Source: Cyclobacteriaceae bacterium (GTDB taxonomy: Bacteria > Bacteroidota > Bacteroidia > Cytophagales > Cyclobacteriaceae). From it: a stretch of 55,948 nucleotides of DNA. The translations under genes and the position numbers were made by a program. This document shows, in pieces, positions 28,036 to 37,781 of this stretch (positions are counted from its first letter, which is position 1; every line of letters begins with the position of its first letter). Where the stretch lies: NCBI GenBank assembly GCA_012033595.1, contig JAAUQL010000029.1, forward strand, positions 1 to 55,948, in the 5' to 3' direction. The notes beneath the pieces are model-generated. The model saw only the letters and a list, made by a program, of their open reading frames with translations, had not been told where the DNA came from and did no database searches.

Positions 28036-29046
28036 TTAAAACGACTTCAACAACTCAAAAGTGGCCCGCATTTTACGGATCATCTGCTCTGATTCACGAA
28101 AGTCCAGGGTTTGCTGACCATCAGAAAATGCTTTGTAGGGATTGCTGTGCGTTTCGTAAATAATGCCATCTGCCCCGGCCATGATCGAGGCCAACGCCAA
28201 TGGCTCCACGTGCCTTCTGATCCCAATGCCATGCGACGGATCGGAAACTACGGGCAGGTGTGTTTTCTCTTTTAGAATAGGGATAGCATTCAAATCGAGC
28301 GTGTTTCGGCTGGCCGTTTCATAGGTTCTGATTCCGCGTTCGCAAAGAATCAGCTTTTCATTGCCTCCCGAAAAGACGTACTCTGCCGAATACAGCAATT
28401 CATCGATGGTGCCGGAGATGCCCCGCTTAATCATTACGGCCTTGTCTATTTGCCCGAGCGCGTCGAGCAGGTTGAAGTTCTGCGTGTTCCGTGCGCCAAC
28501 CTGAAACACATCGGTATATTCCAGCATGGGTTCTATCTGACTCACCTGCATCACCTCCGTCACTATTTTCATGCCGGCTGCTTTGGCATGTTTGTACCAT
28601 AACTGCAAGCCCTCAATGCCCATTCCACGAAAAGCATATGGCGAACTTCGCGGTTTGTAAACGCCCCCACGCATCATTTTAATGCCGTTGGCTTTGAGAT
28701 GCCCGATGGTTTCCAGGATTTGCTCTTCGCCCTCTATGGAACAAGGCCCGGCCATAATCGCCAGAGAACCATCACCAATGGCGATGCCATCGCCAAGATC
28801 AACTGCCGAAGGAACAACCTTCCACTTGCGCGAAACAAGCTTGTAACTGTCGGAAACGATATGTATATCGGCTATGCCGGACAAATTGCCGATCTGCCGG
28901 ATATCGAATTCTTTGCTGCCGATACCTATGAGGTAGGTTCCCTTTTGGGTAAGTACCTCATTGGCTTCGTAGTTAAAGCTATTTACCTTGTTGATAATCG
29001 CCTTCTTTTGTTCAGCGTCAATATTATTTTTTAGTTGAATAATCAT
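28036..29046 (-). CDS. aroF: 3-deoxy-7-phosphoheptulonate (DAHP) synthase, type I beta
   Basis: 336 residues, first step of the shikimate pathway. Residues 1-70 are a ferredoxin-like regulatory domain; the barrel follows with AIMAGPCSIEGEEQI, MMRGGVYKPRSSPYAFRG, GARNTQNFNLL, VMIKRG and PVVSDPSHGIGIR, all hallmarks of the AroF/KDO8PS-like group. No chorismate mutase domain. It overlaps trpA by 4 nt (ATGA), so it is the last gene of the trp operon and should respond to the same attenuator. Confidence 0.95.
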   Translation of the reverse strand: MIIQLKNNIDAEQKKAIINKVNSFNYEANEVLTQKGTYLIGIGSKEFDIRQIGNLSGIADIHIVSDSYKLVSRKWKVVPSAVDLGDGIAIGDGSLAIMAGPCSIEGEEQILETIGHLKANGIKMMRGGVYKPRSSPYAFRGMGIEGLQLWYKHAKAAGMKIVTEVMQVSQIEPMLEYTDVFQVGARNTQNFNLLDALGQIDKAVMIKRGISGTIDELLYSAEYVFSGGNEKLILCERGIRTYETASRNTLDLNAIPILKEKTHLPVVSDPSHGIGIRRHVEPLALASIMAGADGIIYETHSNPYKAFSDGQQTLDFRESEQMIRKMRATFELLKSF

Positions 29047-29840
29047 GCTTTTCCTTTGACTGATTGTATAAATCCGAATATATCCTGTTCCATATTTTTT
29101 GTATTGCTGAGCAGTTGAATAAATGCCGAACCAATGATGGCTCCCGAGGCATGGGCACTGGCCTGGTCGAAAGTGGCCTTATCGGAAATTCCAAAACCGA
29201 TCAATGTCGGATTGTTCAACTTCATGGCTTTGATGCGCTCGAAATATGCCAATTGAGATGACGAAATCCCTGCCTTTGCCCCTGTGGTGCTTGCAGAAGA
29301 CACCATATAAATAAATCCCCGTGAATTTCCATCAATCTCCCGTACCCGGGCATCGGAGGTCTGTGGAGTAATTAGAAATATGTTTAAAAGTCCATGCGCT
29401 TCGAAAACATTTTTATAACCTTCGAGGTATTCCTGCATGGGCAAATCGGGCAAAATCACGCCATCGATACCAATTTCGGCACATTTCTTACAGAAAGCTT
29501 CAATCCCATATTGTAGCACAGGATTGATGTAGCCCATCAGAATGATGGGGATGTCGACTGATTTTCGGATGTCGCCCAACTGGTCAAATATCAATTGCAG
29601 CGAAATGCCATTGTCGAGCGCGACTTTGTTGCTCTCCTGGATGGTCGGCCCGTCAGCCACCGGATCTGAATAGGGAATGCCCACCTCTACGATATCTGCA
29701 CCGGCCTTGGCCAAGTGCTCCACGATGTGTGCGGTATCATCGATTGCCGGAAACCCGGCGGTGAAATACACTGAGAGTATCCGCTCCTTCTTTTGCTCAA
29801 AGAGCTCCTCTATTCTGTTTTTTGTCATTGTAATAGACAT
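29043..29840 (-). CDS. trpA: Tryptophan synthase alpha subunit
   Basis: 265 residues. Catalytic residues in VEVGIPYSDPVADGPTIQ (Glu and Asp) and phosphate-binding GFGISDKATFDQA and GAIIGSAF. Cleaves indole-3-glycerol phosphate and passes indole to TrpB. It lies 163 nt downstream of trpB, a gap that carries an AAC-rich repeat tract. Confidence 0.97.
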   Translation of the reverse strand: MSITMTKNRIEELFEQKKERILSVYFTAGFPAIDDTAHIVEHLAKAGADIVEVGIPYSDPVADGPTIQESNKVALDNGISLQLIFDQLGDIRKSVDIPIILMGYINPVLQYGIEAFCKKCAEIGIDGVILPDLPMQEYLEGYKNVFEAHGLLNIFLITPQTSDARVREIDGNSRGFIYMVSSASTTGAKAGISSSQLAYFERIKAMKLNNPTLIGFGISDKATFDQASAHASGAIIGSAFIQLLSNTKNMEQDIFGFIQSVKGKA

Positions 29841-29970: not shown

Positions 29971-30007
29971 GCTAACTAACAACCATCAACCAACAACCGA
30001 CAACTAA
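29971..30007. repeat. AAC-rich dispersed low-complexity repeat (trpB-trpA gap)
   Basis: A tract built of CAAC/CAACC-like units. Related tracts occur, on one strand or the other, at 34033-34080, 37855-37890 and 52991-53030, always in intergenic gaps. Function unknown. Confidence 0.55.
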
Positions 30008-31185
30008 TACCCCCCCCACTTGATATACGTCTCCAAATCTTTATCTCCTCTTCCCGAAAGGTTCACGACAATAATATCATCTTGCTCAAAGCTCATTTTG
30101 TCCAGTGCAGCCAGGGCATGTGCCGATTCTATGGCCGGAATGATCCCTTCAAGCCTGCTGAGCAAAATACCCGCTTTCATCGCTTCTTCGTCCGTGGCAC
30201 TGTAAAATTGCCCCCTACCCGACTCGAACAAATGCGCATGAACTGGCCCAATGCCCGGATAGTCCAATCCTGCCGAGATAGAATATGGCTCTACCACCTG
30301 GCCGTCGCTGGTCTGCATCAAAAGCGTCTTGGATCCATGAAGCACCCCGGGTTTCCCAAGCACCGTGGTGGCTGCCGATTCACCACTTTGGTTGCCGAGA
30401 CCGGCCGCTTCTACGGCGATCAGTTGCACATCATCCTGATCGAAATAATGGTAGAAAGCCCCAGCGGCATTGCTGCCCCCGCCGACACAGGCCACTACAA
30501 AATCCGGGTTTTCCCTGCCTTCTGTCTCCTTCAACTGCCACTTGATCTCTTCGCTAATCACAGACTGAAAGCGCGCCACCATATCGGGGTAAGGATGTGG
30601 CCCTACCACCGAACCAATGATATAGTGGGTATCGACCGGATGGTTGATCCAGTGACGCATGGCCTCGTTGGTGGCGTCTTTGAGGGTTTTGCTGCCACTC
30701 CTGGCCGGGCGTACTTCAGTACCCAAGATGCGCATCCGCTCCACATTGGGTCTTTGTCTGGCCATATCTACTTCGCCCATATACACAATACACTCCATCC
30801 CCATTAGCGCACAGACCGTTGCCGTAGCTACGCCGTGCTGTCCGGCACCGGTTTCGGCTATAATTTTTTGTTTACCCAATCGTTTGGCAAGCAAAATCTG
30901 GCCAACGGTATTATTGACCTTGTGCGCACCGGTATGGCAAAGGTCTTCCCGCTTCAGATAGATCTTCGACTGGTATTTTTCTGATAAACGCGTGGCATAG
31001 TACAATGGCGTAGGCCGACCCACATAGGTCTTGAGCAGGTGATCAAACTCTTGCCTGAAGCTCGCATCCTGAAGTATGCTCAGGTAATTTTGCCTCAACT
31101 CTTCCACATTGGGAAAAAGCATTTCAGGAATATAGGCTCCACCAAAATTGCCGTAGTACCCACGGCTGTCAACTTCTATTTTCAT
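30004..31185 (-). CDS. trpB: Tryptophan synthase beta subunit
   Basis: 393 residues from ATG 31185 ([21 protein letters not shown]). A longer in-frame extension from 31248 has no family counterpart and was rejected. PLP lysine in [16 protein letters not shown], glycine loop [10 protein letters not shown] and [14 protein letters not shown] are present. Condenses indole and serine to tryptophan. Confidence 0.97.
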
Positions 31186-31255
31186 ACCTTTTAATTCAAA
31201 TCTCAATTCAGTTACAATCTTTGCCAATAAACTGCCGCTATTGCCCATTATTGGC

Positions 31256-31460: not shown

Positions 31461-32090
31461 TCATATTTCAAACATTTTCAGCTTCCTGCTCAGCTCCCCC
31501 AACATCCCCAAATCCTTTAACCCCGGCTCGATCTCGAACTTACTGTTCACATCGATCGCTTGGATTTTCGACACCTCCAGTTTATTTAAATCATCAATAT
31601 TTTCCAGGCTGATTCCCCCACTCAAAAAGTACGGTATGTTCAATGCGTACTTCTGTAACATGGCCCAGTCAAATGCGCGCCCAGAGCCACCATATTGACT
31701 TGTCTTGGTATCGAAAAGGAAGAAATCCACCACCATTTCGTAAGGCTTTAGTATTTCAAAATCAAAACCTTCCTCTACATGAAAGGCTTTGATCACCCCT
31801 AAATTCGGACTTTGCAAGCCTTCGCAAACTTCAGGCGATTCACTTCCGTGAAGCTGCACAACGTCCAGCTTGAACTTTTCGACCATATCCTGCACCACAT
31901 CTACGGATTCGTTTACGAAAACACCTACCTTTTTAATAGATTTTTCATGGAATGCGGGCATCTTAAAATCGTGTCCGATGAAGCGGGGTGATTTGGGGTA
32001 GAAAATAAAACCGATATAGTCCGGCTGCAAAGCCATCACTTCGGCGATATTGTCCCTCAATCCGCAAACTTTCCATCTGAGCCTGCTCAT
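31461..32090 (-). CDS. trpF: Phosphoribosylanthranilate isomerase
   Basis: 209 residues from ATG 32090 (MSRLRWKVCGLRDN), chosen because the catalytic Cys motif KVCGLR normally lies at the N-terminus; an upstream extension would overlap trpC. Starts one nucleotide after the trpC stop, so coupled. Family blocks YIGFIFYPKSPRF, VVQLHGSE, PYFLSGGISLENID and IDVNSKFEIEPGLKD (catalytic Asp) are seen. Confidence 0.96.
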   Translation of the reverse strand: MSRLRWKVCGLRDNIAEVMALQPDYIGFIFYPKSPRFIGHDFKMPAFHEKSIKKVGVFVNESVDVVQDMVEKFKLDVVQLHGSESPEVCEGLQSPNLGVIKAFHVEEGFDFEILKPYEMVVDFFLFDTKTSQYGGSGRAFDWAMLQKYALNIPYFLSGGISLENIDDLNKLEVSKIQAIDVNSKFEIEPGLKDLGMLGELSRKLKMFEI

Positions 32091-32091
32091 C

Positions 32092-32895
32092 TTATCTTGC
32101 CTGCTGGATTTTTTTAACCTTTTGTATAAAATCCGCACACGCCGCCCCCGGACGACTGTGAGACATAAAATGCTCGCCGATCAAAAAGCCTTTGAATCCA
32201 TGCTTTTGCAATTGGACAACGGTCTCCGGATTGCTGATGCCGCTTTCGGAAATCTTCACAAATCCATTTGGAATATCATCTGCTAACTCGATGGAGGTTT
32301 CCACACTTACGTTGAATGTTTTCAGGTCGCGGTTGTTCACCCCTACCACATTGAGGTGCTCGTTGAGATGGCTCCTGAGTTCCTCACCGTTGTGAACTTC
32401 CATAAGCACTTCCAGTCCGAGCGATCTGGCAAATTGTGCCAGGGTTTTCAGTCGCTCCGGAGTCAAAGCCGCTGCAATGAGCAATATCGCATCGGCTCCA
32501 ATCGACTTGGCTTCTACGATTTGATATTCATCGATGGTGAAATCCTTTCGGAGTATAGGACAAAAATTGAACTTTCGGGCGGTGGTCAGGTCTTCGTTTT
32601 TTCCACCGAAGAACTCCCCATCTGTCAGAATAGAAAGTGCCGAAGCGCCGCCCTGCATGTAGCTGATGGACGTTTGCTCAATGGAGACAAACTCATGGAT
32701 CATGCCTTTGGAGGGTGATTTTCGTTTGATCTCAGCGATGATGCCAACCTTATCGTCGCGCAAAAGGTACTTTCTGAGCGACACACATTCAGATGGAAAA
32801 TAGATGCTTTTTTCCAGCAGTTTGGTTGGATAAAGGCTTTTACGCTCTGCAACTTCCTTTTCTTTTTGGGCAATTATTTTGTCAAGTATATTCAT
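32092..32895 (-). CDS. trpC: Indole-3-glycerol phosphate synthase
   Basis: 267 residues. Motifs: IIAEIKRKSPSKGMI (catalytic Lys), ALSILTDGEFFGG, ILRKDFTIDEYQI, VGVNNRDLKTF and SESGISNPETV. Stand-alone, not fused to trpF, which follows at 1 nt. Converts CdRP to indole glycerol phosphate. Confidence 0.97.
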   Translation of the reverse strand: MNILDKIIAQKEKEVAERKSLYPTKLLEKSIYFPSECVSLRKYLLRDDKVGIIAEIKRKSPSKGMIHEFVSIEQTSISYMQGGASALSILTDGEFFGGKNEDLTTARKFNFCPILRKDFTIDEYQIVEAKSIGADAILLIAAALTPERLKTLAQFARSLGLEVLMEVHNGEELRSHLNEHLNVVGVNNRDLKTFNVSVETSIELADDIPNGFVKISESGISNPETVVQLQKHGFKGFLIGEHFMSHSRPGAACADFIQKVKKIQQAR

Positions 32896-33032: not shown

Positions 33033-34022
33033 TTATATCCCCATCAAAGTCTTAAAACTCTTCAACGCTGCGCCTGATTCAAGCGAAACACGTGCTTTAT
33101 CGACTGCCCCTTGCAGTCCCAATGAACTATCGGAGCAATAGAGCGCCATACCGGCATTGGCCAGCGCCACTTCTTTCTGTGCGCGGGTCGATCGGTTTTC
33201 CAAAACAGATAGAAATATCCCGGCGGCATCTTCAACCGTCTTGCCACCAGACAATTCCTCTGGTTTGTAGGTATCCAAACCAAGATCTGCCGGACTAACA
33301 ATCTGTTGGTCGCTTGGTGTCAATATTTTAAAATTTCCCGTAAGGGAAACTTCATCGTACCCATCGAGGGCATAAATGACCATAAAGTCCGTGTCGGTCT
33401 GCTGAAACAAATAGGCATACAAACGAGCCAATTCCAGACTAAAAACCCCGGTCAATTGCTTTTTGGGAAAGGACGGATTGACCATTGGTCCGAGCATATT
33501 GAAAAAGGTCTTTACGCCCAGCTCCCTTCGTACCGGCGCAACGTTTTTCATGGCCGGGTGAAACATAGGTGCATGCATATAGCAGATGCCACTTTGGTCG
33601 AGCGAACGCTTCAATTTGTCCACGTCATTGGTGAACTCATAACCAAAATATGCGAGCACGTTTGACGAACCGCACACCGAAGAAACACTGTTGTTGCCGT
33701 GCTTGGCCACATTTTGTCCTGCTCCAGCCACAATAAATGATGCCAGGGTAGAAATATTGAATGTGTCCTTGCCGTCGCCGCCTGTGCCGCACAAATCAAT
33801 AGCATCGTATTCGGCAATAGCTACCGGAAGGCAAAGTTCCAGCATGGCCTCCCTGAAACCTGTGAGTTCATCCACTGTGATGCTGCGCATAAGATAAACC
33901 GTGAGAAAGGCCGCCATCTCGGAGTTATTGTATCTGCCCTGGGCCAGGTTGCCCAGAATCTCCTTTGCCGTTTTGCGATCCAGAGATTTATATTCAAAGA
34001 GTTTATTCAGTATGTCTTTCAT
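33033..34022 (-). CDS. trpD: Anthranilate phosphoribosyltransferase
   Basis: 329 residues. PRPP and substrate motifs: DLCGTGGDGKDTFNISTLASFIVAGAG, KHGNNSVSSVCGSSNVL, MFHPAMKNVAPVRRELGVKTFFNMLGPMVNP and YALDGYDEVS. Second step of tryptophan synthesis. 102 nt after trpG. Confidence 0.97.
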   Translation of the reverse strand: MKDILNKLFEYKSLDRKTAKEILGNLAQGRYNNSEMAAFLTVYLMRSITVDELTGFREAMLELCLPVAIAEYDAIDLCGTGGDGKDTFNISTLASFIVAGAGQNVAKHGNNSVSSVCGSSNVLAYFGYEFTNDVDKLKRSLDQSGICYMHAPMFHPAMKNVAPVRRELGVKTFFNMLGPMVNPSFPKKQLTGVFSLELARLYAYLFQQTDTDFMVIYALDGYDEVSLTGNFKILTPSDQQIVSPADLGLDTYKPEELSGGKTVEDAAGIFLSVLENRSTRAQKEVALANAGMALYCSDSSLGLQGAVDKARVSLESGAALKSFKTLMGI

Positions 34023-34124: not shown

Positions 34125-34706
34125 CTAGTCCCTATTTTTTTCCAGCCAATTTTGCATCAATTTTATTCCATTTTCAGTCAGGATGGATTCGGGATGAAAC
34201 TGCAGGCCGCGCACATCGTGCGTTTTGTGGCTCAGGCCCATCACTATGCCTTTATCATCTTCGGCAATTATCTCCATTTCACCATTGACTGTGGAGGCAT
34301 CTACTGCCCAGGAATGGTAGCGACAAACCATAAACTCATTGGGGACATCCTGAAACAGATAGTCATCCTTTGCCAAAACCTGTACCCTGGTGCCTACGCC
34401 ATGCAGCACATCGGTCATGTTGTACAAGGCAGCTCCGTACACTTCTCCAATCGCCTGATGGCCAAGACAAATACCCAAAATGCTTTTACTTGCTCCATAG
34501 GTACGTACCAAATCCAGCAAAATACCAGCCTCTGAAGGAATGCCCGGACCGGGACTCAGGAGGATTTTGTCGTACCCGCCGACAGCTTCGAGGGCGATTT
34601 TATCGTTGCGGTACACATCCATCGAATCCCCATAACCCAGCTCACGGATGATGTGCACCAGGTTGTAGGTAAACGAATCGTAATTGTCCAATACCAATAT
34701 TCTCAT
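34125..34706 (-). CDS. trpG: Anthranilate synthase glutaminase component
   Basis: 193 residues from ATG 34706 (MRILVLDNYDSFTYNLVH). Nucleophile Cys in LGICLGHQAIGE, His/Glu in LQFHPESILTENG, oxyanion strand LLSPGPGIPSEAG. Pairs with TrpE. Not fused to trpD. Confidence 0.97.
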   Translation of the reverse strand: MRILVLDNYDSFTYNLVHIIRELGYGDSMDVYRNDKIALEAVGGYDKILLSPGPGIPSEAGILLDLVRTYGASKSILGICLGHQAIGEVYGAALYNMTDVLHGVGTRVQVLAKDDYLFQDVPNEFMVCRYHSWAVDASTVNGEMEIIAEDDKGIVMGLSHKTHDVRGLQFHPESILTENGIKLMQNWLEKNRD

Positions 34707-34799
34707 CAATTTAAATATTTCATTTTAAGCTCACGGCGAAACTTAACCAGGCAATTGTTGTCCTTATATAGCTGAGGCTGTGCCGGTCGCATTTTAATA

Positions 34800-36218
34800 T
34801 CAATTATCCATTTTGTCTGCCTGCACTATCGCCGTACGCAATGCGGCCAATTTATTATTGACCTCCTGCAGCTCATTTTCCTGTTTCGATTTTTCTACCA
34901 CCCCGGCACCTGCCTGATAATACAGCGTGTTGTTCTTGCTGAGAAAAGACCTGATCATGATGGCATGGTTGAACTCACCATTGAAACCCAGAAAACCTAT
35001 GGCACCACCATAATGACCGCGTCTGGTGTTTTCGTATTTATCGATCAGGTCCATGGCCATTGGCTTTGGTGCACCTGACAGTGTACCTGCCGGAAAGGTA
35101 TCGGCCACCATCTGAATGGTATCTGCCCCATCGTTGAGTTTGCCGACAACTTTTGAAACCAAATGGATGACGTGTGAGTAGAATTGCACTTCTTTAAACG
35201 TTTCCACTTTCACATTCGAGCCGTTTCTGCTCAGGTCATTTCTTGCCAGATCCACCAGCATTACGTGCTCCGATGTTTCCTTTTCATCTTCCGATAATTT
35301 TTGTGCCAGCTCGGCATCGGCCTGATCGTTTCCTGTACGCCTAAAGGTGCCGGCAATTGGATAAATAATGGCTTTGCCGTCCTTAATCACGATCTGAGCC
35401 TCCGGAGAGGAACCAAAAATCTTAAAGCTACCATAGTCGAAATAGAATAGGTAGGGTGAAGGATTAACAGACCTGAGCGATCGATAAACATTGAATTCAT
35501 CGCCAAGAAAGCTGGACTTAAACCTTCGGGACAGTACTATCTGAAAGACATCGCCACGGTGGCAATGCTCTTTGCCTTTGGTAACCATATCGATATATTC
35601 GGCATCAGAGACATTGGAAGATTCGTCATTTTTCCATTGAAAGCGGTAGTCCGGATAATTTTTACTTCTCACCATATCGGCTATTTCAGGGAGGTTGCTT
35701 GCTTCGGTGTCGCCTTCTGCCTGATGGTCGAAGAGGTACATTTCATTTTTGAAATGATCAATTACGATGATGTTTCGATACACCGAATAGTGGATATCGG
35801 GAATGGCGTATTCGTCTTTCTTGCCCTCCGAAAGGTGAATATCTTCAAAGTACTGCACCGCATCGTAGCCAACATAACCAAACAGTCCGTTCGTGATGAA
35901 TTTAAACCCCGCATCCTGAGTCTGAAAGGCACTCATAAACTCACTCAGCTCTTTGATGGCTTGTATTGGCTCAGCCAGCTTCCTGCGCTCCACTTCGCCA
36001 TGGGGCCAGGAAAGATGCAAGTCATGGTCTTTTAGTTTGAAAGAGGCCATAGGATTGCAACAAATATAGCTGTAGCTGTTTTCGGCTCCGTGGTAATCTG
36101 AGCTTTCGAGCAAAATGGAGTTGGCATATTTGTCGCGCAGTTTTAGGTAAATGCTTACCGGAGTTACCATATCGGCCAGCATGCGCAAGTGTGTACTATG
36201 TAAGGTTGTCTTTTTCAA
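34800..36218 (-). CDS. trpE: Anthranilate synthase component I
   Basis: 472 residues. Start is TTG 36218 (reads MKKTTLHSTHLRMLADMVTPVSIYLKLRD); the feedback-type motif LLESSD follows, and no upstream ATG is in frame after the attenuator. Chorismate-binding blocks FQIVLSRRFKS, PSPYLFYFDYGSFKIFGSSPEA, PIAGTFRRTG, ARNDLSRNG, DTFPAGTLSGAPKPMAM and GAIGFLG are all present. The start lies about 19 nt after the attenuator T-run, so read-through controls the whole operon. Confidence 0.97.
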   Translation of the reverse strand: MKKTTLHSTHLRMLADMVTPVSIYLKLRDKYANSILLESSDYHGAENSYSYICCNPMASFKLKDHDLHLSWPHGEVERRKLAEPIQAIKELSEFMSAFQTQDAGFKFITNGLFGYVGYDAVQYFEDIHLSEGKKDEYAIPDIHYSVYRNIIVIDHFKNEMYLFDHQAEGDTEASNLPEIADMVRSKNYPDYRFQWKNDESSNVSDAEYIDMVTKGKEHCHRGDVFQIVLSRRFKSSFLGDEFNVYRSLRSVNPSPYLFYFDYGSFKIFGSSPEAQIVIKDGKAIIYPIAGTFRRTGNDQADAELAQKLSEDEKETSEHVMLVDLARNDLSRNGSNVKVETFKEVQFYSHVIHLVSKVVGKLNDGADTIQMVADTFPAGTLSGAPKPMAMDLIDKYENTRRGHYGGAIGFLGFNGEFNHAIMIRSFLSKNNTLYYQAGAGVVEKSKQENELQEVNNKLAALRTAIVQADKMDN

Positions 36219-36236
36219 TTTTTCCTGTTTTTAGAC

Positions 36237-36266
36237 AAACAAAAAGGCTCGCCGAACGACGAGCCT
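36237..36266 (-). terminator. trp attenuator terminator hairpin
   Basis: Minus-strand stem AGGCTCGTC/GGCGAGCCT (9 bp with one G-U) and GTTC loop at 36266-36245, followed by TTTTTGTTT. A competing pairing is visible: GGCTGAACG at the leader stop (36302-36294) can pair with CGTTC (36258-36254) and AGCC (36249-36246), which would break the terminator. A ribosome stalled at the Trp codons would leave that segment free; a ribosome reaching the stop would cover it. Confidence 0.85.
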
Positions 36267-36296
36267 ATATCTATTTTTTGCACATAAGGATTCCGT

Positions 36297-36359
36297 TCAG
36301 CCAAGATGTTCTCTTCTATGCCACCACCAGATTCCTATATGAAATATTCCTTTTTTCAT
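36297..36359 (-). CDS. trpL: trp operon leader peptide (20 aa, three consecutive Trp)
   Basis: ATG 36359 to TGA 36297-36299. The peptide reads MKKGIFHIGI, then WWW, then HRREHLG. The three tandem TGG codons are at 36329-36321. It lies between a promoter-like pair and a T-tailed hairpin, 80 nt ahead of trpE. Position, tandem Trp codons and the downstream terminator together are the textbook arrangement for ribosome-mediated attenuation. Confidence 0.9.
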   Translation of the reverse strand: MKKGIFHIGIWWWHRREHLG

Positions 36360-36366
36360 TGAGCGC

Positions 36367-36397
36367 CAAAATAGGAAAGCAGATATGAAATGCAAAA
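36367..36397 (-). promoter_or_regulatory. Probable trp operon promoter
   Basis: Minus-strand TTTTG (36397-36393), 19 nt, then TATTTTG (36373-36367), close to TTTG-N19-TAnnTTTG with one T missing. Transcription would start within a few nucleotides of the trpL ATG, so the leader mRNA would have a very short 5' end. Confidence 0.45.
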
Positions 36398-36613
36398 GCT
36401 TTTTATATTTTTTAATTCCACATGATCACAAAATTTAATTTGCCCGGGTTTCCGGAGGGCTTATATATTTATATAAAAGCCATGAATTATAAATAAAGTC
36501 TAAATGTTGTACAATGAAATCAGCTTTTTATTAAATTATGATTGATTTTTAAAAGACGGAATTTCAGTGGAATATTTTTTACATCCCATCAAATTATATA
36601 ATCTCAAATCAAC

Positions 36614-37513
36614 ATGGATTTAACGTACAGTAAGTTTTTGGCCGTTTGGCAAATAATCGCCCTCAGCCTCAGTGCCGTTTCTTTTATCGTAGCTATTCTT
36701 ATTCTTATCATCCACAAAATCAGGTTTTCATCCATCTCGGATTATAAGCAAAAGTACGACTATCTGGCCTCCAACGATTCCAGAATGGTGTTTATGTCAA
36801 TTGTAGCCTTTGCTGTCGGGCTTACCCTCATCATCAATACAGTCTATGACGATACGGTAGCTGTGAGCGTGGTATGGTTTTTTGTTCGAATGTTTATAGC
36901 GCTGTGCATAGGCACGCTCATAATCTACATCTCCTATTTGATGATGCGCTTTGCCTATCCGACTACTTTGGAAAAGAAAATGAAAAAGTGGCGATATAAG
37001 CCAAGGGTAAACAGCAAAACCGGCCATACGATGAAATTGCTGAGTGAAGATGAGGAAGATGTGCATCTTGACGAGGGAATGCAGGCTGAAGAAAATGTAT
37101 TTTCGGTAGATTACGATGTGTGGGTAGATGAAGAAACGGGTGATGTACAAATAGAAAAATATCCCGGACACTTGATTGCATACCAGTGCAACTCTTGCGG
37201 TTTTAAGACCATGAAACTGATCAAAGAAGAAATAGTGATAGCCCCCACTGAACATGCTGACGGAGAAATGATCAAAAACTACCAATGCAACTATTGCAGT
37301 GCCAAAAGGAGCAAAACGGTAAAAGTGGCCAAGCTATCTCAAAGTGAGTCACACTATAAATTGCCTGCCCACCTGCATTTTAAAAATGAAGAAAAAGTAG
37401 ATTTGGTAAGCCTTGAAATTCACATCAGCACTGGCAAAACCAGGATGTTTGAATTCAATTCCACTAAACAAGCGAGTGAATTTTTGAAAGAATTTAAGGT
37501 AGAAGAGGAGTAG
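36614..37513 (+). CDS. Uncharacterised membrane protein with CxxC...CxxC tail
   Basis: 299 residues. Three membrane helices in the first 120 residues (FLAVWQIIALSLSAVSFIVAILILII, MVFMSIVAFAVGLTLIIN, VWFFVRMFIALCIGTLIIYISYLMM), then a cytosolic region. The tail has paired cysteines, YQCNSCGF and YQCNYCSA, about 40 residues apart, spaced like a zinc ribbon, and a final basic/hydrophobic part. I recognise no family. It is transcribed away from the trp leader and has no close downstream partner on its strand. Confidence 0.7.
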   Translation: MDLTYSKFLAVWQIIALSLSAVSFIVAILILIIHKIRFSSISDYKQKYDYLASNDSRMVFMSIVAFAVGLTLIINTVYDDTVAVSVVWFFVRMFIALCIGTLIIYISYLMMRFAYPTTLEKKMKKWRYKPRVNSKTGHTMKLLSEDEEDVHLDEGMQAEENVFSVDYDVWVDEETGDVQIEKYPGHLIAYQCNSCGFKTMKLIKEEIVIAPTEHADGEMIKNYQCNYCSAKRSKTVKVAKLSQSESHYKLPAHLHFKNEEKVDLVSLEIHISTGKTRMFEFNSTKQASEFLKEFKVEEE

Positions 37514-37606: not shown

Positions 37607-37613
37607 TACAACA

Positions 37614-37781
37614 TTTCAAGTTGGCTCCTAACGTTTTCAAGTTGGACATTTCTCATTTGAAGTTGCATCCTACCGTTTTCACATTGGACATTTCTCATTT
37701 GAAGTTGGATCCTACCGTTTTCACATTGGACATTGCTCATTTGAAGTTGCATCCTACCCATTTGATGTGCTCTATATAGAT
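37614..37781. repeat. 21-bp tandem repeat array, about 7-8 units
   Basis: Seven consecutive 21-bp units from 37614 to 37760 plus a degenerate eighth to about 37781. Each begins TTTCAAGTTGG, TTTGAAGTTGC or TTTCACATTGG. Units alternate between two types ending CATCCTACCGT or ACATTTCTCA, giving a 42-bp higher-order period. No spacers, so not CRISPR. The minus strand is open for 70 codons with a 14-residue repeat, expected from a 42-bp period free of stops. Confidence 0.85.

Follow-up and report, generated by a model that had tools for sequence, protein, structure and literature searches.

A predicted ribosome-mediated attenuator of the trp operon in a Cyclobacteriaceae bacterium and its recurrence in Bacteroidota

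The region ahead of trpE in the Cyclobacteriaceae bacterium considered here is best explained as a ribosome-mediated transcription attenuator of the trp operon, a reading that draws its support from comparison and folding and to which we assign a probability of roughly 90%. The region lies in a window of 55,948 nt, by which we mean the whole stretch of DNA analysed, and this window is one contig of an assembly of 5.75 Mb over 234 contigs. A prior sequence-only reading had proposed an attenuator with a terminator and an antiterminator, and that proposal is well supported by comparison and by in-silico folding. The elements it had named are present on the minus strand (Table 1): a promoter-like pair, a 20-aa leader ORF with three tandem TGG codons, a T-tailed 9-bp hairpin, and a competing segment at the leader stop that pairs over 9 bp with the terminator hairpin.

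The gene count is revised. Where nine genes had been claimed, we count eight recognisable ones, trpE-G-D-C-F-B-A and a DAHP synthase, all on the minus strand. On the same strand, 387 nt past the DAHP synthase, lie four his genes, namely hisH, two of the His_biosynth type and one PRA-CH/PRA-PH, and the 387-nt gap holds no ORF longer than 44 aa on the operon strand. The gene upstream of the trp leader, at 36614-37513 (+), is divergently oriented, and the leader hairpin is therefore not that gene's terminator. Its 299-aa product has, by eye, a hydrophobic N-terminal part and two CxxC pairs, and searches of NCBIfam and Pfam returned no match for it. An intergenic tandem array at 37612-37758 consists of 3.5 copies of a 42-base unit with 91% matches.

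Table 1. Features of the trp leader and operon, in window coordinates.
Feature	Coordinates	Strand	Basis
-33-like element TTTG	36393..36396	-	sequence; relatives' TTG placement
-7 box TATTTTG, 7-nt variant of TAnnTTTG	36367..36373	-	sequence, relatives
Leader peptide ORF MKKGIFHIGIWWWHRREHLG, 20 codons, stop TGA	36297..36359	-	sequence
Three tandem Trp codons TGG TGG TGG; the third and the next C also pair with the start of segment 2 (helix 1:2)	36321..36329	-	
Helix 1:2 of the free RNA: pre-Trp and Trp codons with stop and post-stop region	36277..36344	-	minimum-energy fold
Segment 2 (GCTGAACGG), spans leader stop TGA; antiterminator 5' strand	36293..36301	-	
Antiterminator 3' strand (TCGTTCGGC), covers terminator loop and top of both arms	36251..36259	-	
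Intrinsic terminator hairpin, 9 pairs (6 G-C), loop 4, tail TTTTGTTTGT	36245..36266; T tail 36244-36241	-	
trpE, anthranilate synthase component I, TTG start as listed	34800..36218	-	
trpG	34125..34709	-	
trpD	33033..34022	-	
trpC	32092..32895	-	
trpF	31461..32138	-	
trpB	30004..31248	-	
trpA	29043..29840	-	
DAHP synthase (PRK08673 / DAHP_synth_Bsub), overlaps trpA end	28036..29046	-	

In the mechanism that we propose, transcription would begin a few nucleotides ahead of the leader ATG, and translation of the leader would be started by a ribosome at or near the mRNA 5' end. When charged tRNA-Trp is scarce, this ribosome would stall on the three Trp codons and open helix 1:2, freeing segment 2, which lies about 18 nt downstream and outside the stalled ribosome. 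The free segment would base-pair with the terminator loop and the stem just beneath it as the hairpin emerges from RNA polymerase, and the antiterminator so formed would block the terminator and allow the operon to be transcribed. With Trp plentiful, the ribosome would instead reach the stop codon and cover segment 2, and the terminator would form; the same outcome is expected of an untranslated leader, in which helix 1:2 would sequester segment 2. The start of transcription, the translation of the leader and the Trp-dependent read-through are what we infer from this arrangement.

Folding of the window is consistent with this scheme. The antiterminator pairing of GCTGAACGG with TCGTTCGGC comprises 9 bp, two of them G-U, and the longest perfect Watson-Crick run within it is only 5. 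The ribosome was modelled by blocking all RNA up to its leading edge, with a footprint of 15 nt from the start of the P-site codon. With no ribosome, the RNA folds into helix 1:2 and the terminator; with a ribosome at each of the Trp codons, the predicted fold contains the antiterminator and lacks the terminator; with a ribosome at the stop codon, the terminator is predicted again. In silico, a ribosome on the Trp codons of the window thus releases an antiterminator incompatible with the terminator, and the equilibrium folds of relatives show this more weakly. A simple terminator scan of 35700-37000 reported 2 sites against 1.1 in shuffled sequence, the second being the same inverted repeat on the plus strand.

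The tandem Trp codons, on whose conservation the sequence-only reading had staked itself, are widespread before trpE in relatives. We collected 210 trpE upstream regions, comprising 50 of 51 strong TrpE matches (own genome, genus, family and order), 80 of 115 further family genomes, and 80 named loci kept of 579; 13 were dropped as redundant by upstream sequence, leaving 197. An ATG-started ORF of 8-45 aa with WW or WxW occurs within 400 nt of trpE in 185 of the 197, and 166 of these leaders carry WWW, 14 WW and 5 WxW. Among 250 control genes of the same family, the 400 nt upstream contained a short ORF with WW or WxW in 13 cases and one with WWW in none, and composition-shuffled trpE regions gave a mean of 2.0 WW/WxW ORFs per 197 and no WWW. 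A T-tailed hairpin follows 184 of the 185 leaders, one of which (L045) appears to be spurious. In 94 of 166 leaders (83 of 108 outside L072-L141) a C follows WWW, which makes WWWH frequent. In the window's own genome, the pattern TGGTGGTGGCAY has 13 matches against 4 for its reversal; ten of these sites, one of them the window's own, were read in frame and yielded no second convincing Trp leader.

The twelve regions that fall outside this count are of several kinds. Two (L171 and L068) have WWW after a non-ATG start. Four others (L096, L097, L114 and L132) have a WWW leader and hairpin 512-573 nt upstream of trpE, displaced by an inserted gene that was identified in L096 and L132. In these two it is a small GIY-YIG gene (Pfam PF01541) between hairpin and trpE, a position in which it would fall under attenuator control. 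The remaining six have no such leader within 400 nt, and come from the own family (L016) and the order (L030, L034, L036, L044 and L047). Beyond this sample, a phylum sample of 198 contained 66 genomes whose TrpE match reached E<=1e-90, and from these we hand-picked 40 trpE regions: 20 belong to the class, including one of the own order, and the other 20 to different classes of Bacteroidota. A Trp-rich leader precedes trpE in 37 of the 40, 29 of them with WWW or longer, and all three misses lie outside the class. The T-tailed hairpin follows in 36 of the 37.

The prediction of near-leaderless translation, also made in the sequence-only reading, is supported by promoter spacing. The -7 box in the window is one base short of the TAnnTTTG consensus, which the genus mates G002-G005 carry in perfect form and which a further genus mate, G001, also lacks. 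A sigma-70 promoter scan of the window did not report the trp leader promoter, as expected for a promoter of Bacteroidota type. In 128 of 184 relatives, a candidate leader ATG has a perfect TAnnTTTG at most 60 nt ahead of it, and for the outermost leader ATG this holds in 117 of 184, against 9.3 in shuffles; 116 of the 128 relatives with a perfect box also have TTG some 16-26 nt upstream of it. The box ends 4-9 nt ahead of the leader ATG in 72 of these 128, against 6 of 29 control genes with a box, a rough control, as few genes (29 of 260) contain the box and starts were set at the first in-frame ATG. In Flavobacterium psychrophilum, the -7 box is reported at -12 to -5 (PMC9723704), and relatives whose box ends 4-9 nt before the ATG would thus have a 5' UTR of 0-5 nt. 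On the same promoter-based grounds, we predict a transcription start near 36362 in the window and a 5' UTR of about 3 nt, and leader translation is probably near-leaderless. Two published studies give about 3.7% of 5' UTRs as shorter than 10 nt in B. thetaiotaomicron (PMC7366714) and 5.5% of examined mRNAs as leaderless in F. psychrophilum (PMC9723704).

The leader segment matches its own terminator much better than shuffled or swapped controls do. In comparative tests that are uncorrected for relatedness apart from the collapsing of identical loops, the leader segment and its own terminator had a mean duplex energy of -17.2 kcal/mol, against -12.7 kcal/mol for permuted terminators (the lowest of 5000 permutations reached -13.5) and -11.1 for shuffled segments. 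A perfect Watson-Crick run of at least 6 to the loop region was present in 110 of 184 relatives (6.9% of shuffled and 18% of swapped pairs), and one of at least 7 in 77 of 184 (1.7% of shuffled and 8.6% of 4000 swapped pairs). The 110 relatives with a run of at least 6 use 66 different helix sequences. When one genome was kept for each distinct loop (113), own pairs still beat permutations (z = 18), and with GC-matched swaps the own pair lay above the swap mean in 89% of 179 cases.

Covariation could be followed in an alignment of seven genomes (six of the genus, one of the family) in which the antiterminator and helix 1:2 were taken from the window. Pairing of the window's 9-bp antiterminator holds in 96.8% of cells and drops to 22-52% when the helix is slid; two of the seven sequences each break one pair. 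Two antiterminator pairs change on both sides, a number reached by 104 of 500 shuffles and so no more than chance can give; the covariation score, reached by 4 of 500, does stand out from the shuffles. In G001 and G002, a G-to-A change in the middle base of the stop codon (TGA to TAA) is accompanied by a C-to-U change in the terminator loop, which may reflect a single event. A 2x2 table of stop codon against loop base across relatives holds only 36 cases and is weak. For helix 1:2 the paired share of cells is 69%, compared with 34-56% at slid positions, and eight of its pairs change on both sides, which none of 500 shuffles reached; across relatives, its energy with its own partner is -14.5, against -11.2 with permuted partners.

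The position of this pairing follows the Trp codons more closely than the stop. For the 78 relatives whose perfect run reaches 7 or more, the median distance from the last Trp codon to the helix start is 18 nt (10-90% range 16-21, sd 2.7). The last Trp codon was taken as the end of the first WWW, WW or WxW run, a definition that places a few multi-run leaders (e.g. L007) off by a few codons. Measured from the stop codon in the same 78, the helix start has an sd of 8.7, and distance from the Trp codons is uncorrelated with stop position (r = -0.03). Seventeen of the 78 have their stop at an atypically short or long distance, and among these the sd is 2.3 when measured from the Trp codons, against 15.1 when measured from the stop. 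The helix start is thus fixed relative to the Trp codons wherever the stop lies, as expected if the stalled ribosome is the ruler. None of 184 leaders has its stop less than 12 nt from the Trp codons. TGA serves as the stop in 69 of the 73 leaders whose stop falls at +22 to +24, within the helix zone, against 37 of 111 leaders with the stop elsewhere; these counts, uncorrected for relatedness, tell more than the table of stop codon against loop base. Segment 2 should remain accessible with a ribosome on the Trp codons and be covered, at least in part, once the ribosome is at the stop.

Folding of relatives is less telling. With a finished hairpin, equilibrium folding produced the switch in 6% of 184 relatives and 0% of 920 shuffled sequences, and with a ribosome at the Trp codons most relatives kept the terminator. 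We rejected these equilibrium folds as proof of the switch, since the finished terminator wins in most; a switch there would have to be kinetic. In this run the free RNA of the window kept 0.6 of the pairs and fell short of the free-RNA state, because the automatically drawn hairpin carried extra outer pairs. When the RNA was cut 2 nt past the loop and a ribosome placed at the second Trp codon, the antiterminator (at least 7 pairs) formed in 100% of 184 relatives, and also in 66% of 1840 shuffled linkers. The combination of antiterminator on at Trp and off at the stop appeared in 76% against 27% of shuffled linkers, and with the free RNA also off in only 29% against 6%. With no ribosome, the antiterminator formed in 64% of the cut RNAs; helix 1:2 thus fails to block it in most of the predicted free RNAs, and the evidence for helix 1:2 as a brake is therefore weaker, the window included. 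The window's own cut-RNA fold is not clean, with 13 pairs between linker and hairpin in the free RNA, 15 when stalled and 6 at the stop. As a model, cut-RNA folding is better than equilibrium folding but not specific.

Other explanations would have to account for the same observations. The region might hold an ordinary intergenic terminator and a chance ORF, with no regulation, and short upstream ORFs with two nearby Trp codons do arise before 13 of 250 control genes; given that WWW precedes trpE in 166 of 197 regions and none of 250 controls, that no co-directional gene lies upstream to be terminated, and that complementarity to the own partner exceeds the controls, we find this barely credible. 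A terminator and antiterminator pair alone would equally serve a T-box or a Trp-binding protein, with the Trp ORF incidental. Such non-ribosome regulation is highly improbable: no T-box model is among the Rfam entries at E<=10 for the region, which apart from RF00513 look like chance, only a tRNA is matched in the window at gathering score, and 20 relatives' loci match no Rfam family. The ORF with tandem Trp codons is moreover nearly universal, and the pairing is spaced from those codons.

It is also conceivable that termination is constitutive and the leader mainly yields a product acting in trans, either a small RNA like rnTrpL or a peptide like peTrpL of Sinorhizobium meliloti. The attenuated trpL RNA of that species is reported to begin with ATG and to act in trans (PMC7298713), and a near-leaderless leader with a terminator has the same layout. 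Against this stands the wide variation of the peptide outside WWW among relatives, set beside conserved cis pairing, distance ruler and stop-codon choice, and we regard a mainly trans-acting leader as very unlikely. A role in trans in addition to cis attenuation may exist and is compatible with the conservation evidence. The attenuator acting in cis, read by a ribosome on the Trp codons, is the explanation that we retain.

As a class, the Trp attenuator in Bacteroidota is already known as a prediction. RF01692 (Bacteroid-trp, 'Bacteroidete tryptophan peptide leader RNA') was listed in 2010 by Weinberg (PMC2864571), Bacteroid-Trp RNA is named before the trp operon of F. psychrophilum (PMC6414381), and clues for leader-peptide attenuation before amino-acid operons are reported in a further paper (PMC9723704). 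The earlier impression that the element was undescribed holds only in part: RF01692 covers such elements in other Bacteroidota, and its model misses the lineage of the window. The model found no match in the window region at E<=10 (gathering score 49 bits) and none at gathering score in 20 relatives' loci. Across the phylum it matched 29 of 296 genomes under strict filters, all in the same class, and had no match in any of 12 genomes comprising the window's own and others of its family or order. The window shares with the family a Trp-rich leader, trp genes downstream, a host in Bacteroidota and helix 1:2. The ten RF01692 loci that we read have the same anatomy: all precede trp genes (nine trpE-like and one trpB-like frame, by eye) and carry WWW in nine leaders and WW in one; most end the leader with a GTCGTGA segment whose complement lies in the terminator loop, and have a TAnnTTTG-like box close to the ATG. 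The RF01692 model ends in the 5' arm of the terminator, and so covers helix 1:2 but not the terminator or antiterminator, and its helix sequences are of TCGTGA type, whereas the window has GCTGAACGG.

The best Rfam match of the leader region by bits is RF00513 (Trp_leader), at 20.1, below the gathering score of 41. The window differs in that its pairing takes in the stop codon and has the terminator loop at its centre, and in its predicted near-leaderless start. It shares with E. coli trpL the Trp codons in the leader helix, the terminator, and an antiterminator that excludes the terminator; the E. coli leader has two Trp codons and the window three. The alphaproteobacterial S. meliloti rnTrpL/peTrpL resembles the window in that its RNA, ahead of trpE, opens directly with the leader ORF, and differs in that a leaderless trp leader and a function in trans are reported there (PMC7298713), whereas leaderlessness in the window is predicted. 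In the parts available to us of the open-licence literature on attenuation in the phylum, we did not find the Cytophagales form, the phylum-wide reach, the distance rule or the loop-centred helix.

A related arrangement was observed before hisG. Of 36 Cyclobacteriaceae regions, 31 have a short His-rich ORF ahead of hisG, whereas such an ORF precedes 5 of 251 control genes. The 36 regions are L292 (G000:C211), with the ORF about 72-144 nt before the hisG match, L293-L297 of the genus and L298-L327 of the family. By eye, the hisG leaders fall into two layouts: some have a T-tailed hairpin, and others (e.g. ...VHHFHHSS-stop) lack a visible terminator and carry a tight hairpin of UUCCUC/GAGGAA type at their stop codon. 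Leaders of the window's genus contain a GUGGG that is able to pair with a CCCAC immediately ahead of hisG, a pairing that would suit translational rather than transcriptional attenuation. A cmscan of five genus hisG loci found no relevant Rfam family at E<=0.5.

As far as sequence can tell, the trp design recurs more widely in Bacteroidota than RF01692 covers. That family finds only some cases (29 of 296 genomes under strict filters), set against Trp-rich leaders in 37 of 40 trpE regions, and this partial coverage, together with a model that stops before the complete terminator, implies that regulation of Trp synthesis is under-annotated in the phylum. We tentatively suggest, at somewhat less than even odds, that most trpE-headed trp operons of Bacteroidota share one ancestral and largely leaderless attenuator. 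Its ribosomes would start at the RNA 5' end without reliance on Shine-Dalgarno pairing, the Trp codons and an antiterminator built around the terminator loop would be separated by a fixed ruler of about 18 nt, and the leader stop would often lie in the switch helix. Classical attenuation needs a ribosome close behind RNA polymerase. If the suggestion is true, it would mean effective transcription-translation coupling from the first codon in Bacteroidota. A conserved ribosome ruler before trpE in much of the phylum would make both coupling and leaderless initiation testable by simple reporters, in a phylum without general use of Shine-Dalgarno sequences.
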